Shown piece after piece: positions 1-15,034 of a stretch of 27,345 nucleotides of DNA. The DNA comes from a virus. Position 1 is the first letter of the stretch; each line of letters starts with the position of its first letter. A program made the translations under genes and the position numbers. Where the stretch lies: IMG/VR virus record IMGVR_UViG_3300017706_000210, positions 1 to 27,345 of that record. One strand, given 5' to 3'. The notes beneath the pieces are model-generated. The model searched no databases. It saw only the letters and a list, made by a program, of their open reading frames with translations, and was not told the DNA's origin.

Positions 1-780
1 ATGGCTGTAATTTTACTTATCACAGCGGCTTTCTCAGAGATTTTTAGCGTCCAAAAAGGTTATTTAATCGATTTTTCATGGACTTTTGTATCACAGTTCA
101 TTGCAGGCTCTATTGCCTTCTATCTAAACTTTAGAAAACAGTTTAAATTACGTCAACAGATTAAAAAACAATTTGAACATTACTTAGATCCGAGACAAGT
201 CAAACAGCTCCAGGACAATCCAGATCTATTAAAACTCGGTGGCGAAAAAAAATACTGCACATTTTTATTTACTGATCTTCGTGGTTTTACATCTTTGAGT
301 GAAAAACTGCCACCAGAAGAAGTCACCGACATAATGAATAAAACTTTGACGGTCCAGGTAAACGCTGTGCAAAAATTAGGCGGTATGACAGATAAATTTA
401 TTGGGGACGCAGGCATGTTTATATTCGGAGCTCCTTTAGATCTTGAAGATCAAGAAACTAAAGCAGTCCAGGCTGCTATAGATATTCAAAAAGGTATAGC
501 CGAGCTCAATAAAACTTTATCTACACCAGTCCAGGTGGGCGTCGGAACCCAGTCTGGATTTGCAGTGATTGGAAATATGGGATCGGATACTCGGTTTGAT
601 TATTCGGCAATCGGTGATCCTGTAAATACAGCTGCAAGATTAGAGTCGGCAACCAAAGAAGTTGGTGTAGATATTTTAATTGGGCAAGAAACTGCAAAAA
701 ATTGCAAACTTGTGTTAAAGTCTCTAAAACCTATTAAAGTAAAAGGTAAAAAAGACGAACTTAAGATATGGACGGTATAA
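1..780 (+). CDS. Class III adenylate/guanylate cyclase, CHASE2-type sensor cyclase (5' end outside window)
   Basis: Makes a cyclic nucleotide (cAMP or cGMP) from the NTP, as a membrane-anchored homodimer. Only the C-terminal part is visible: hydrophobic segments at residues 1-17 and 25-44 look like the last membrane helices, a short linker (45-80) follows, then the catalytic domain (81-259). Metal-binding aspartates are D92 in FTDLRGFTS and D136 in DKFIGDA. K132 is in the purine-recognition position, and N209 and R213 (GDPVNTAARLE) match the transition-state residues. The second base-selecting position is S202, where class IIIb bacterial enzymes have Thr, so ATP is the likely but unproven substrate. 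The architecture matches the C-terminal half of CHASE2-cyclases, whose extracytoplasmic sensor would lie upstream. The first codon in the window is ATG, but I think the gene is cut, since a full sensor and more helices are expected. Its stop is immediately followed by the next gene's ATG, so it is cotranscribed with the lysis genes. Finding it in a phage is unusual. Confidence 0.88.
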   Translation: MAVILLITAAFSEIFSVQKGYLIDFSWTFVSQFIAGSIAFYLNFRKQFKLRQQIKKQFEHYLDPRQVKQLQDNPDLLKLGGEKKYCTFLFTDLRGFTSLSEKLPPEEVTDIMNKTLTVQVNAVQKLGGMTDKFIGDAGMFIFGAPLDLEDQETKAVQAAIDIQKGIAELNKTLSTPVQVGVGTQSGFAVIGNMGSDTRFDYSAIGDPVNTAARLESATKEVGVDILIGQETAKNCKLVLKSLKPIKVKGKKDELKIWTV

Positions 781-1176
781 ATGAGTAAAGTATTATTTGG
801 AGTAATAGGAGTTCTTATTTTGATTAGTGGTTTTCTCTACACGCAGAATAAAAATCTTGTAAGTATAAATCAAGCGTATGAATTACGAGACGTTGAACAA
901 AAACAAGCAATAGAATCTTTGCAAAACGATTTTGCATTACAAACACAGGGGTTAATAGATTTACAATCTAAAACTCAAGTAATTCAAAATGAAATGAATA
1001 GATATTTAGATATTTTCAAAAGACATAACCTTACAAAATTAGCTGCTGCAAAGCCAGGGTTAATAGAACCAAGAGTTAATAAAGCCACTAAGGAGGTATT
1101 TGATGGCATTGAACAAGACAGTCGCAGTATTGACAATCTTGATGATGGCTTGCAGTTGCAGTCTGATTCCAACTAA
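781..1176 (+). CDS. Inner-membrane spanin (i-spanin-like lysis protein)
   Basis: Likely the inner-membrane half of a two-component spanin, which bridges the inner and outer membranes and fuses them in the last step of lysis of a Gram-negative host. One N-terminal transmembrane helix (about residues 4-21) has a short cytoplasmic lead, followed by a periplasmic helical stretch rich in Q, E and L (about 30-85) that should form a coiled coil. The segment RYLDIFKRHNLTKLAAAKPG and the following VNKATKEVF resemble a family I associate with lysis genes of marine and T4-like phages. The start directly abuts the cyclase stop (TAA then ATG). The C-terminal 74 bases overlap the next gene in another frame, a hallmark of spanin pairs. 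The assignment rests on topology, overlap and neighbours rather than on a strong catalytic motif. Confidence 0.72.
   Translation: MSKVLFGVIGVLILISGFLYTQNKNLVSINQAYELRDVEQKQAIESLQNDFALQTQGLIDLQSKTQVIQNEMNRYLDIFKRHNLTKLAAAKPGLIEPRVNKATKEVFDGIEQDSRSIDNLDDGLQLQSDSN
1090..1096 (+). promoter_or_regulatory. Strong ribosome binding site for the overlapping outer spanin
   Basis: AAGGAGG lies inside the i-spanin coding region, 6 bases before the ATG at 1103. It decides the start of the overlapping lipoprotein gene. A TTG two codon positions earlier (1100) is in frame but too close to this site. Confidence 0.8.
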
Positions 1177-1471
1177 AAAGGTTGAAATAATATCAAAGCC
1201 TGTTGAACGTACAATCGTTCAACCAATACTACCAAGAGAAATAGATCTAAAAGAACCTTATTGGTATGTAGTATCTGCACAAAACTTAGATGAATTTTTG
1301 TTGCAAATAGAAAAAGACCAAGGCCAGGTTGTTTTTTTTGCAATGTCTGTGCCCGATTACGAACTTATGGCCTACAACATGCAAGAACTAAAAAGATACA
1401 TAAATGAACTAAAAGAAGTTGTCGTGTATTATAGAAAAGTAACAACAAAACAGGAAAAAGAAAATGAGTAA
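1103..1471 (+). CDS. Outer-membrane lipoprotein spanin (o-spanin-like)
   Basis: Probable partner of the upstream i-spanin. A lipoprotein-type signal is visible in the first 20 residues: K5, then a hydrophobic core, then MMACSCS, where a Cys following Ala or Ser could be lipidated and sent to the outer membrane. The mature part (122 aa in total) has a Pro/Val/Ile-rich stretch and then a region with KEPYWYVVSAQN and YELMAYNMQELKRYI that I recognise as a conserved small protein of marine phage lysis regions. The start at 1103 is fixed by AAGGAGG. It overlaps the i-spanin by 74 bases and ends in an ATGAGTAA overlap with the nuclease gene. At about 100 residues after the signal it is longer than a minimal o-spanin such as lambda Rz1, so an added function is possible. 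Confidence 0.65.
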   Translation: MALNKTVAVLTILMMACSCSLIPTKKVEIISKPVERTIVQPILPREIDLKEPYWYVVSAQNLDEFLLQIEKDQGQVVFFAMSVPDYELMAYNMQELKRYINELKEVVVYYRKVTTKQEKENE

Positions 1472-1844
1472 AGCACCAGATGCGTTTGTATATAATTGCC
1501 AACTAGACAGAGTGATCGACGGTGACACTTTTGACTGCATAATAGATCTTGGTTTTGATGTTAAACTGCACAAACAAAGAGTACGTTTAAGTGGTATAGA
1601 TACTCCAGAATCTAGGACTAGAGATTTAGCAGAAAAGAAACTAGGTCTTGCTGCCAAAGAAAGATTAAAAGAACTGTGCGTTGGAAAATTTAAAATAAAA
1701 TCACTTGGCAAAGGAAAGTACGGCAGAATATTAGGAATCCCTTATGATGAAAATGGTAAAGATATTTGTAAAATACTTATTGAAGAAGGCCATGCGGTCG
1801 AATATCACGGCGGAAAAAAAACTACAGTCTGGGGAGACTATTAA
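1464..1844 (+). CDS. Staphylococcal nuclease-like (SNase/TNase) endonuclease
   Basis: A calcium-dependent phosphodiesterase of the thermonuclease family that would cut DNA or RNA. The 126 residues are a bare SNase domain. VIDGDTF (17-23) gives the metal ligand D21, RLSGIDTPES (41-50) supplies R41, D46 and E49, and KYGRILG (85-91) supplies R88, so the three classic catalytic residues (Arg35, Glu43 and Arg87 in the staphylococcal enzyme) are all present. There is no signal peptide, so it should act in the cytoplasm, for example on host nucleic acid. The start overlaps the spanin stop by 8 bases, with AGGA 8 bases upstream. Phage SNase genes are known but not universal; a position between spanin and lysozyme genes suggests late expression. 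Confidence 0.9.
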   Translation: MSKAPDAFVYNCQLDRVIDGDTFDCIIDLGFDVKLHKQRVRLSGIDTPESRTRDLAEKKLGLAAKERLKELCVGKFKIKSLGKGKYGRILGIPYDENGKDICKILIEEGHAVEYHGGKKTTVWGDY

Positions 1845-1845
1845 T

Positions 1846-2289
1846 ATGAAAATATCAAAAGAAGGTTTATCGTTAATCAAAAAATTTGAAGGATGCGAAT
1901 TAAAAGCATATCACTGCGCTGCGGGCGTTCCTACAATCGGGTATGGATCTACTCATGGTGTATCTATGGATATGGAGATTACCCAAGAAGAAGCTGACGA
2001 ATTGTTAATGAAAGACGTGGCTAAGTTTGAAGAAGCTGTCACTAGAGCAGTAAAAGTTCCCTTAGAGCAAAATCAATATGATGCAATTGTCTCCTGGACT
2101 TTTAATTTAGGGCCATCAAATTTGAGTAGTTCAACCATGCTTCGTGTTTTAAACGAAGAAAAATATGACGAAGTTCCAGCACAAATTAAACGCTGGAATA
2201 AGGCTGGCGGGAAGACACTCCAGGGACTTATTAGAAGAAGGGATGCGGAAGCCTTACTATTTGAGGGTAAGGAATGGCACGAAGTATAG
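1846..2289 (+). CDS. Endolysin, GH24 lysozyme (T4/P22-type muramidase)
   Basis: Cleaves the glycan strand of peptidoglycan to release progeny. The 147-aa length fits a single-domain GH24 enzyme. Catalytic spacing is E15-8aa-C24-5aa-T30 (FEGCELKAYHC and GVPTIGYG), the E-8-(D/C)-5-T pattern, with Cys where T4 lysozyme has Asp20. The C-terminal half has the expected QYDAIVSWTFNLG and LQGLIRRRDAEALL segments. An in-frame ATG at 1744 would add 34 residues overlapping the nuclease gene; I chose 1846 because it follows the nuclease TAA by one base, has GGGGAG about 9 bases upstream, and begins the protein at MKISKEGL, as in other family members. There is no N-terminal signal-anchor, so a holin is needed; none is recognisable in this window. 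Confidence 0.95.
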   Translation: MKISKEGLSLIKKFEGCELKAYHCAAGVPTIGYGSTHGVSMDMEITQEEADELLMKDVAKFEEAVTRAVKVPLEQNQYDAIVSWTFNLGPSNLSSSTMLRVLNEEKYDEVPAQIKRWNKAGGKTLQGLIRRRDAEALLFEGKEWHEV

Positions 2290-2374
2290 CGATATGTAAT
2301 ACTACACCTAGGCGTAATACGCTTAGAGCTGAGTTGCATAAAATATCGTCGCTACCTTGTTTCTCAGCTCGTTT
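2290..2374 (+). other. Non-coding gap with interleaved inverted repeats, upstream of terminase
   Basis: This is 85 bases without a plausible gene. Three base-pairing possibilities are visible. A compact palindrome at 2308-2326 has arms CTAGGCGTA and TACGCTTAG (one G-T pair) around a single base. An outer pair CGATAT (2290-2295) with ATATCG (2343-2348) encloses it. GAGCTGAG (2326-2333) pairs with CTCAGCTC (2363-2370), just before the terminase ATG. AGTTGCA occurs at 2332-2338. There is no T-tract, so it is not a simple terminator. A packaging-recognition site, an mRNA structure controlling terminase translation, or an operator are possible. Confidence 0.5.
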
Positions 2375-3859
2375 ATGAGTGAAGTATCTTTTAAAGATTT
2401 TGATATTTTATCTGAGCAAGACAAGGCTGAGGCTGTTGCCTTGTTGCATAGATATGATCAATTAGAAAAACAAGATGGTTGTCAGCAAGACTTTATAACT
2501 TTTATAAAACACATGTGGCCCGACTTTATTGAAGGATCCCATCATAAAATTATTGCTGAAAAATTTAACAAAATTGCTGATAATAAACTTAAAAGATTAA
2601 TAGTTTGCTTACCGCCTAGACACTCAAAGTCTGAGTTTGCATCAACTTTTTTTCCTGCCTGGATGATGGGCAGACGTGGTAATTTAAAAATTATACAAAC
2701 AACTCATACAGCTGAACTAGCTGTAAGATTCGGCCGTAAAGTAAGAAACATAATAGACAGCGAAGATTATCAACATGTTTTTCCAGATCTCCAGCTACAA
2801 GCAGATAACAAATCAGCTGGCCGTTGGACAAGTAACCAAGAAGGTGAGTTCTTTGCAGCTGGTGTTGGTGGTGCTATTACAGGTCGTGGTGCGGATCTAT
2901 TGATTATTGATGATCCACATTCAGAACAAGATGCACTGTCACCCAAGGCATTAGAATCAGCTTACGAGTGGTACACATCTGGTCCACGACAGCGTCTGCA
3001 ACCTGGTGGAATTATAGTGATAGTAATGACCAGATGGAGCACAAAAGATCTGGTTGGTAAAGTTCTTAATAAACAAGGCGATGAAAACGCAGATCAGTGG
3101 GAAGTAGTAGAGTTTCCTGCTATTTTACCCGATTCAGAAAAACCTTTATGGCCAGAGTTTTGGAAAAAAGAAGAACTACTCGGTGTTAAAGCCTCATTAC
3201 CTATATCTAAATGGAATAGTCAGTGGATGCAAAATCCAACAGCTGAGGAAGGATCTATAGTTAAAAGAGAATGGTGGAATAGATGGGAAGATGTAGATGT
3301 GCCATCTTATTCTTATGTAATACAAAGTTATGACACAGCTTTTTCTAAAAAAGAAACAGCCGACTATTCAGCTATAACAACCTGGGCAATATTTAATAGA
3401 GGTGACGAACAAAACGATGAAATCATACTTTTAGATGCGAAAAGAGTACGTTTTGACTTTCCAGAGCTTAAAAAACTCGCTCTTGAAGAATACAGATACT
3501 GGGAACCAGATTGTGTTTTGATTGAAGCAAAAGCCTCTGGAACACCGCTTACTCACGAACTCAGACGTATGGGCATACCTGTTACTTCATACTCACCGAG
3601 CAGAGGACAGGACAAAGTAGCCAGGATGAATAGTGTTGCACCTATATTTGAGTCTGGAATGGTATGGGCACCAGAAGATGATTTTGCAGAAGAGGTTATT
3701 GAAGAAATGGCATCATTTCCATTCGGTGATTATGACGACTTTTGCGATAGTGCTACAATGGCTTTAATGCGTTTCCGTCAAGGTGGTTTTATATCATTAC
3801 AAGAAGACTACCAGGATGAAATTAAGTTACTAAAAAAGAACAGGACGGTTTATTATTAA
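2375..3859 (+). CDS. terL: Terminase large subunit (packaging ATPase and nuclease)
   Basis: The motor that cuts concatemeric DNA and pumps it into the prohead through the portal. The 494 residues carry both domains. In the ATPase, the deviant Walker A is LPPRHSKSE (79-87), Walker B is LLIIDD (175-180), and the coupling motif is MTRWS (218-222). In the RNase H-like nuclease, the candidate acidic metal ligands are D320 (SYDTAF), E384 (IEAKASG) and D458 (DDFCDS). I start at the ATG at 2375; an in-frame TTG at 2357 would add six residues with no better ribosome site and would fall within the upstream inverted repeat. No small terminase is recognisable in this window. The stop overlaps the candidate start of the next small gene. 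Confidence 0.95.
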   Translation: MSEVSFKDFDILSEQDKAEAVALLHRYDQLEKQDGCQQDFITFIKHMWPDFIEGSHHKIIAEKFNKIADNKLKRLIVCLPPRHSKSEFASTFFPAWMMGRRGNLKIIQTTHTAELAVRFGRKVRNIIDSEDYQHVFPDLQLQADNKSAGRWTSNQEGEFFAAGVGGAITGRGADLLIIDDPHSEQDALSPKALESAYEWYTSGPRQRLQPGGIIVIVMTRWSTKDLVGKVLNKQGDENADQWEVVEFPAILPDSEKPLWPEFWKKEELLGVKASLPISKWNSQWMQNPTAEEGSIVKREWWNRWEDVDVPSYSYVIQSYDTAFSKKETADYSAITTWAIFNRGDEQNDEIILLDAKRVRFDFPELKKLALEEYRYWEPDCVLIEAKASGTPLTHELRRMGIPVTSYSPSRGQDKVARMNSVAPIFESGMVWAPEDDFAEEVIEEMASFPFGDYDDFCDSATMALMRFRQGGFISLQEDYQDEIKLLKKNRTVYY

Positions 3860-14344: not shown

Positions 14345-15034
14345 GTGGCGTATTTAATATCAAATATCCCGCAGTTTAAATGCTGGGTACGAAAAGAATT
14401 TACAACCAACCATCAACATGGTCATGGTGAATATTTGCATGCTTTGGCATTTGCAGTTAATACAATCCCAGACAGATCTTTGTCCTTTCAAGTTGTTTTT
14501 ACTGGTTGTGAAACGGATTTTGAAGGTTATCCCGACGAAAACGTACACGGTGGAGCTATGTGGGCCAGGATGCCTATACAAGCTCTTGTTGGCGACATAC
14601 CTTTACCAGAGTGGCCAAAGCCAATGGAAGATCATTTAGCACAACCTTGGGATTGCTTAAGTCACGATCATAGCGTAGTCATACTTGACAGAGTAAGCTC
14701 AAGTCCTTGGTATTGTAAAATAGATGGCGATTTTTATATGGGTAAATATTTATTTACAGTCGATTATACCGATAATTCTATTGCAGATGATCCTGCTCAA
14801 CATAAACAGTCACATGTGTTATATTTGACGGATGCTGGTGAATATACTGGTAATTTTGTAGCTCTACCTAATAATAGAGTTAGAGCAACCAATCCAGCTT
14901 TATGGAGAACAGGTGAAGGCGCACCAGATTTTGCACCATCACAATGGATCCATTCTGCTGAGGCACACGAGAGTTATACAGATCCAGTCAAGACATTTGA
15001 CAATTTGTATGCCTCAGACGAAGATAGAGAGTAA
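14345..15034 (+). CDS. Conserved phage protein, function unknown (GTG start)
   Basis: 229 residues starting from GTG at 14345. It begins AYLISNIPQFKCWVRKEFTT and has a Trp/His/Pro-rich, mixed alpha/beta character: NHQHGHGEYLHALAFAV, GGAMWARMPIQALVG, QPWDCLSHDHSVVILDR and PWYCKIDGDFYMGKYLFTVDY. I recall this family as a conserved unknown in the structural region of marine phages. Several His and Cys could bind metal, but no known site is clear. No separate ribosome site is visible (AAGG overlaps the GTG), so expression may be modest. It leads the adaptor and tail block. Confidence 0.75.
   Translation: MAYLISNIPQFKCWVRKEFTTNHQHGHGEYLHALAFAVNTIPDRSLSFQVVFTGCETDFEGYPDENVHGGAMWARMPIQALVGDIPLPEWPKPMEDHLAQPWDCLSHDHSVVILDRVSSSPWYCKIDGDFYMGKYLFTVDYTDNSIADDPAQHKQSHVLYLTDAGEYTGNFVALPNNRVRATNPALWRTGEGAPDFAPSQWIHSAEAHESYTDPVKTFDNLYASDEDRE

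Follow-up and report, generated by a model that had tools for sequence, protein, structure and literature searches.

A CHASE2-type adenylate cyclase gene ends a phage-borne curli operon next to lysis genes

A cluster of curli, FecR and adenylate cyclase genes was described in 2022 in HTVC023P-type pelagiphages (PMC9599517), and the curli-FecR-cyclase module itself has therefore been known since then. In that paper, the first gene of the module was named a histidine kinase, FecR and the adenylate cyclase were said to be absent from bacterial type VIII secretion system (T8SS) operons, and the main text does not contain the words holin, spanin or lysozyme. The phages HTVC008M and Melnitz (PMC9004378) carry two holin-like genes, csgF, csgG, curlin repeats, fecR and a CHASE2 cyclase in that order. 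Their cyclases are 33% and 30% identical, respectively, to that of L010, a full-length relative of the gene analyzed here, and are followed by tail genes rather than lysis genes. The cellular BiofilmReg operon (PMC5192318), which encodes a secreted FecR-LysM protein beside a CHASE2 membrane sensor, resembles the FecR-CHASE2 pair of the phages but has a histidine kinase as output and contains no curli genes. Our literature searches found nothing on phage CHASE2. The phage cyclase shares its catalytic fold and residues with the class IIIb adenylyl cyclases CyaC (1wc0) and CyaB (3r5g), from which its full-length relatives are set apart by membrane helices and by a CHASE2 domain at the N-terminus.

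Relatives of the locus examined here have the same gene set and order as the HTVC023P-type cluster, and phages of that type are among the nearest terminase large subunit (TerL) and capsid relatives of the window. Newly documented are the placement of the module at lysis genes, a bacterial operon that is its plausible parent, and the absence of any known receptor for cAMP in SAR11, to which the host probably belongs. We favor, at roughly 60%, a reading that puts the cyclase, as output gene, at the distal end of a curli module that came from an alphaproteobacterial operon and was set inside a lysis cassette. The lysis-cassette site, the putatively holin-like first gene, the parent operon and the scarcity of cAMP readers turn a vague "auxiliary gene" into a testable choice between fiber adhesion and timed release.

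The window and its cyclase

The window is the whole 27,345-base linear virus record IMGVR_UViG_3300017706_000210, read here on the + strand; the phage genome is incomplete. Its GC content is 38.8%, compared with 35–37% in sampled stretches of HTVC023P, HTVC027P and 023Pt_psg01. The window contains no tRNA, which makes tRNA-based host assignment impossible. A separate gene at 14345–15034 matches phrog_3704 "ferredoxin" (auxiliary metabolic gene; E 3.4e-32) and no Pfam family. The features of positions 1–3859 are as follows.

1..780, +, last 259 codons of the gene for a class III (IIIb-like) adenylate cyclase of the CHASE2 type; 5' half beyond the contig end
1..240, +, final membrane helix or helices with the conserved linker (LRQQIKKQFEHYLDPRQVKQLQ), from the alignment and from helices in the AlphaFold2 model of relative L002
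250..768, +, catalytic domain, Guanylate_cyc PF00211, residues 84–256, from Pfam, structure relatives and Foldseek
274..276, +, Asp92, first metal ligand, conserved in 83/83
394..396, +, Lys132, substrate-specifying residue, 83/83
406..408, +, Asp136, second metal ligand, 83/83
604..606, +, Ser202, adenine-recognition position, class IIIb pattern, Ser/Thr in 82/83
625..639, +, Asn209 and Arg213, transition-state residues, 82/83 and 83/83
781..1176, +, Rz-like i-spanin directly after the cyclase stop, phrog_739, E 2.6e-10
1103..1471, +, Rz1-like o-spanin with lipobox MACSC, overlapping Rz in another frame, phrog_812, E 8.1e-13
1464..1844, +, staphylococcal-nuclease-like nuclease between spanins and endolysin, PF00565
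1846..2289, +, phage lysozyme (endolysin), no obvious signal sequence, PF00959, E 1.5e-49
2375..3859, +, terminase large subunit, the phage anchor, from profile and relatives; closest named records HTVC023P-type

The contig end cuts the cyclase gene, which places the CHASE2 domain outside the window. A second contig, L002, is 96.2% identical to window positions 1–2655 and extends further upstream. Base 1954 of L002 corresponds to base 1 of the window and to codon 324 of a 582-codon cyclase gene; the ATG at window position 1 was accordingly rejected as the true start. In L002, fecR (2–985) is followed directly by the cyclase (985–2733). The L010 cyclase, 72% identical to that of L002, contains a CHASE2 domain (PF05226, E 1.9e-21) N-terminal to the membrane helices. 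An earlier note, made from the window alone, had called the gene CHASE2-type; the full-length relative bears this out, while the window itself lacks the CHASE2 half. The note had also named host DNA joined by misassembly as an outcome that would overturn its view. Recovery of the N-terminal half and fecR from L002, together with homologues in hundreds of viral contigs, refutes misassembly. A chance passenger or relic from the host would be in line with the bacterial signaling role of class III cyclases, but the conserved gene order, purifying selection and at least 597 confirmed cyclase relatives in our viral-contig scan leave that explanation with next to no credibility.

The open reading frame at 1–780 (259 amino acids) matches PF00211 with E 2.8e-18 and 66.6 bits, against a Pfam cut-off of 21.9. 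In an alignment of 83 phage sequences, Asp92, Lys132, Asp136 and Arg213 are invariant; Asn209 is kept in 82, Melnitz being the sole exception, and 82 have Ser or Thr at position 202. We take Asp92, Lys132, Asp136, Asn209 and Arg213 to be the class III catalytic set. At the positions that specify the purine, class IIIb adenylyl cyclases have Lys together with Thr or Ser rather than Asp, and Lys132 with Ser/Thr202 thus conforms to the adenylyl pattern of that class. The nearest solved proteins by profile are CyaB (3r5g, E 1.8e-36), Cya2 (2w01) and CyaC (1wc0/1wc1). A Foldseek comparison of the AlphaFold2 model of the L002 relative likewise places the predicted catalytic fold with CyaC, Cya2 and CyaB, although the moderate confidence of this model (mean pLDDT 72.5) counts against our favored reading, as does the loss of the transition-state Asn in Melnitz. 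dN/dS between cyclase relatives is ~0.06–0.22, indicative of purifying selection. The intact, invariant active site, the matches to solved proteins and to the model, and the low dN/dS make it likely, as judged from sequence, that the cyclase is catalytically active and produces cAMP from ATP. The earlier note's description of an intact class III site at these residues, in an enzyme that is probably active rather than a relic, is upheld.

Catalytic domains appear to have been swapped between phages, the switch lying close to the conserved linker. Cyclases of L167 and L174 are 96% identical in CHASE2 and 66% in the catalytic domain, and those of L167 and L078 are 58% and 91% identical in the same two parts. 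In the Melnitz cyclase (L082, 6912–8963), Ser stands in place of the transition-state Asn and Asp in place of the usual Ser/Thr, and activity may differ. An in-frame stop, possibly a sequencing error, splits the cyclase frame of L022 (808–2547) near the N-terminus.

The curli module and related bacterial operons

The order holin-like gene(s)-csgF-csgG-curlin-fecR-(sometimes a second curlin)-cyclase was found in 80 viral loci and two isolated myophages. In better-covered relatives, Rz/Rz1 or a three-transmembrane (3TM) or GTA-type holin lies 3' of the cyclase and is followed by an endolysin. In these phages, the cyclase gene closes a curli (type VIII secretion) operon that includes fecR. The window's own csgF, csgG, curlin and fecR lie beyond the contig end; fecR is seen in the 96% relative L002, and the full set stands upstream of the cyclase in L010 and many other relatives. 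A second, CsgG-anchored sample contained fecR and cyclase in 48/48 phage loci and a holin-like gene upstream in 62/62. Loci were drawn from close-homologue searches and are biased and non-independent, with IMG/VR contigs that overlap in origin, which also weighs against our favored reading. The earlier note had described the cyclase as coupled to the lysis genes. The cyclase-spanin junction on which it relied recurs in many viral contigs, but the curli-fecR operon had escaped it, and since the cyclase ends that operon, the description captured only half of the gene's context.

Genes within the block are tightly spaced, with medians of -4 nt between fecR and cyclase, -8 nt between cyclase and Rz, and +8 nt between cyclase and the 3TM protein. 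The csgF-csgG-curlin set carries secretion signals recognized by eye, as does FecR (signal peptide). The FecR model weakly resembles the cell-surface-signaling domain of PupR (E 3.6e-3). In two loci, a gene that looks by eye like a DNA methyltransferase lies between fecR and the cyclase (L085, 1694–2857; L026, 889–1566).

A genome scan revealed csgF, csgG, curlin(s), fecR and a CHASE2 cyclase in the same order in three cellular contigs, one from Hyphomonas sp. TMED17 (L087, a 705-kb contig) and two from Caulobacteraceae metagenome-assembled genomes (MAGs; L086 and L090). These operons share the phage gene order, and their fecR and cyclase genes overlap; no holin-like or lysis genes were found in them. 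No fecR and cyclase were found nearby in the 25 other alphaproteobacterial csgF/csgG loci examined. The three operons qualify the published statement that FecR and the cyclase are absent from bacterial T8SS operons (PMC9599517). They make an alphaproteobacterial operon a plausible parent of the phage module. No curli, cyclase or lysis genes are annotated around TerL in isolated HTVC023P-type phages, and for this reason no empty site can be demonstrated.

The reading that we favor would operate as follows. The module is placed between small holin-like genes and the spanin and endolysin genes, and late in infection the block would be translated as overlapping genes. The curlin-repeat protein would pass the outer membrane through a pore built of CsgG and CsgF. 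Secretion or the state of the envelope may be sensed by the secreted FecR-domain protein together with the CHASE2 domain in the periplasm, and CHASE2 would then control how active the cytoplasmic class IIIb domain is in converting ATP to cAMP.

Host range and candidate cAMP readers

The TerL and capsid of the window phage have relatives ~58–64% identical in HTVC023P-type pelagiphages, roseophages and a phage of a gammaproteobacterium, and SAR11 is its likely host group. We sampled 147 SAR11-family genomes, taken from the family to which a Pelagibacter MAG belongs. Nine of these contain cNMP-binding domains, which by eye look FNR-like in at least two and lie in long proteins in most of the others, whereas the RecA control was recovered in 124/147. 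Class III cyclases occur in three of the 147; one belongs to the phage module and one is a weak match below cut-off. Among 15 phage records, most of them incomplete but including two complete genomes, no cNMP-binding domain was found. The cAMP output consequently lacks a known reader in the phages and has almost none in the SAR11 family, which argues against our favored reading and weakens the idea that the cyclase rewires host regulation by raising cAMP; the earlier note had suggested that it could change host cAMP. Should the phage infect SAR11, the customary route through CRP would be missing. The module occurs in hundreds of marine viral contigs as a surface and signaling system that is absent from the cells' own genomes.

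These data bear on an alternative in which curli fibers on infected cells cause aggregation, sibling capture or superinfection exclusion and the cyclase regulates them through cAMP, a mode of control suggested for curli in bacteria (PMC9599517). We regard this as a reasonable candidate that falls short of even odds. The csgF-csgG-curlin set is complete and bears secretion signals, curlin is conserved, and metatranscriptome evidence of expression has been published (PMC9599517). However, CRP-type regulation of curli cannot operate in the SAR11 family with almost no cNMP-binding proteins, and Melnitz gave no clumping (PMC9004378).

The earlier note had also raised signaling to defense systems that use cyclic nucleotides, which gained no direct support. 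The best match among defense models is PycC (E 3.7e-25), as expected if the cyclase were part of, or manipulated, a Pycsar-type system. This match is restricted to the shared catalytic fold, however; Lys132 and Ser202 fit an ATP-using class IIIb enzyme, and the phage cyclase has a CHASE2 membrane sensor half. No Pycsar effector (PycTM or PycTIR) was found among the profiled neighbors, all of which are curli, FecR or lysis genes (PADLOC was run on part of the window genes). We consider a role in such defense highly improbable.

One SAR11-family genome contains a CHASE2 cyclase (L099, 1495–3279) with no curli genes within the 3.5 kb examined; it may be phage or cellular. Two module-bearing phage contigs, L084 and L089, were binned in Pelagibacter and Flavobacteriaceae MAGs, and bin labels alone are accordingly not proof of host.

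Lysis genes and the holin-like gene

In the window, the TAA of the cyclase (778–780) abuts the ATG of Rz at 781, as the earlier note had observed, and the spanin pair and endolysin adjoin the cyclase at 781–2289 as a lysis cassette. Among 83 non-redundant phage loci in which 2.5 kb or more follows the cyclase, 72 have lysis genes just 3' of it: Rz and lysozyme in 27, a 3TM holin-like gene in 26 (19 with lysozyme), a GTA-type holin with an M15 endopeptidase in nine, and lysozyme alone in 10. Rz and the 3TM gene are mutually exclusive, never occurring together in a locus. The remaining 11 loci, among them HTVC008M, Melnitz and several contigs where a long gene runs in the opposite direction, have no lysis genes there, indicating that the link to lysis belongs to podovirus-type lineages and not to the module itself. 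The position of the module away from lysis genes in these myovirus-type phages counts against our favored reading. Terminators and promoters between the cyclase and Rz were no more numerous than in shuffled sequences and were uninformative.

The gene before csgF encodes 85–116 amino acids with one N-terminal hydrophobic helix. All 29 scanned members match phrog_18771; five match the holin family phrog_4898 (best E ~2e-5), and 10 are weakly YvrJ-like. No kinase domain was found in any of the 29 with Pfam or PHROGs. We rejected the histidine-kinase identity given in PMC9599517, which profiles did not reproduce, and tentatively call the gene holin-like, an assignment in which position counts as much as the profiles. 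By hydropathy only, nearly all small membrane proteins of a 46-kb relative of L010 lie within the region of the holin-like gene and module.

This arrangement raises the possibility of timed egress, with CsgG/CsgF as an outer-membrane pore, the single-TM protein as an inner-membrane holin, and FecR, CHASE2 and the cyclase reporting the state of the envelope to the lysis decision; curlin would be secondary. The flanking lysis genes are in keeping with this scheme, as is the holin-like gene, which precedes csgF in HTVC008M and Melnitz as well and was not found in the cellular operons. An endolysin without an obvious signal sequence would need a holin, and the Melnitz study, which saw no cell clumping, proposed CsgGF as a pinholin-like pore (PMC9004378). 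Yet curlin and fecR are under strong purifying selection, as expected if fibers are made; the myovirus modules lie far from endolysin genes; the holin matches are few and weak; and genes without functional coupling often share late-transcribed regions. We consider timed egress possible but rather unlikely. More speculative still, and in our view doubtful, is the notion that phages turned a bacterial curli operon into an egress device able to sense the envelope, by adding an inner-membrane holin-like protein, and that the cAMP made by their cyclase finds no classical receptor in the host, which would imply an undescribed reader or use of cAMP in SAR11-type infections. The nuclease gene that lies among the lysis genes of the window (1464–1844) is found upstream of the holin-like gene in three other loci (L070, L072 and L074).
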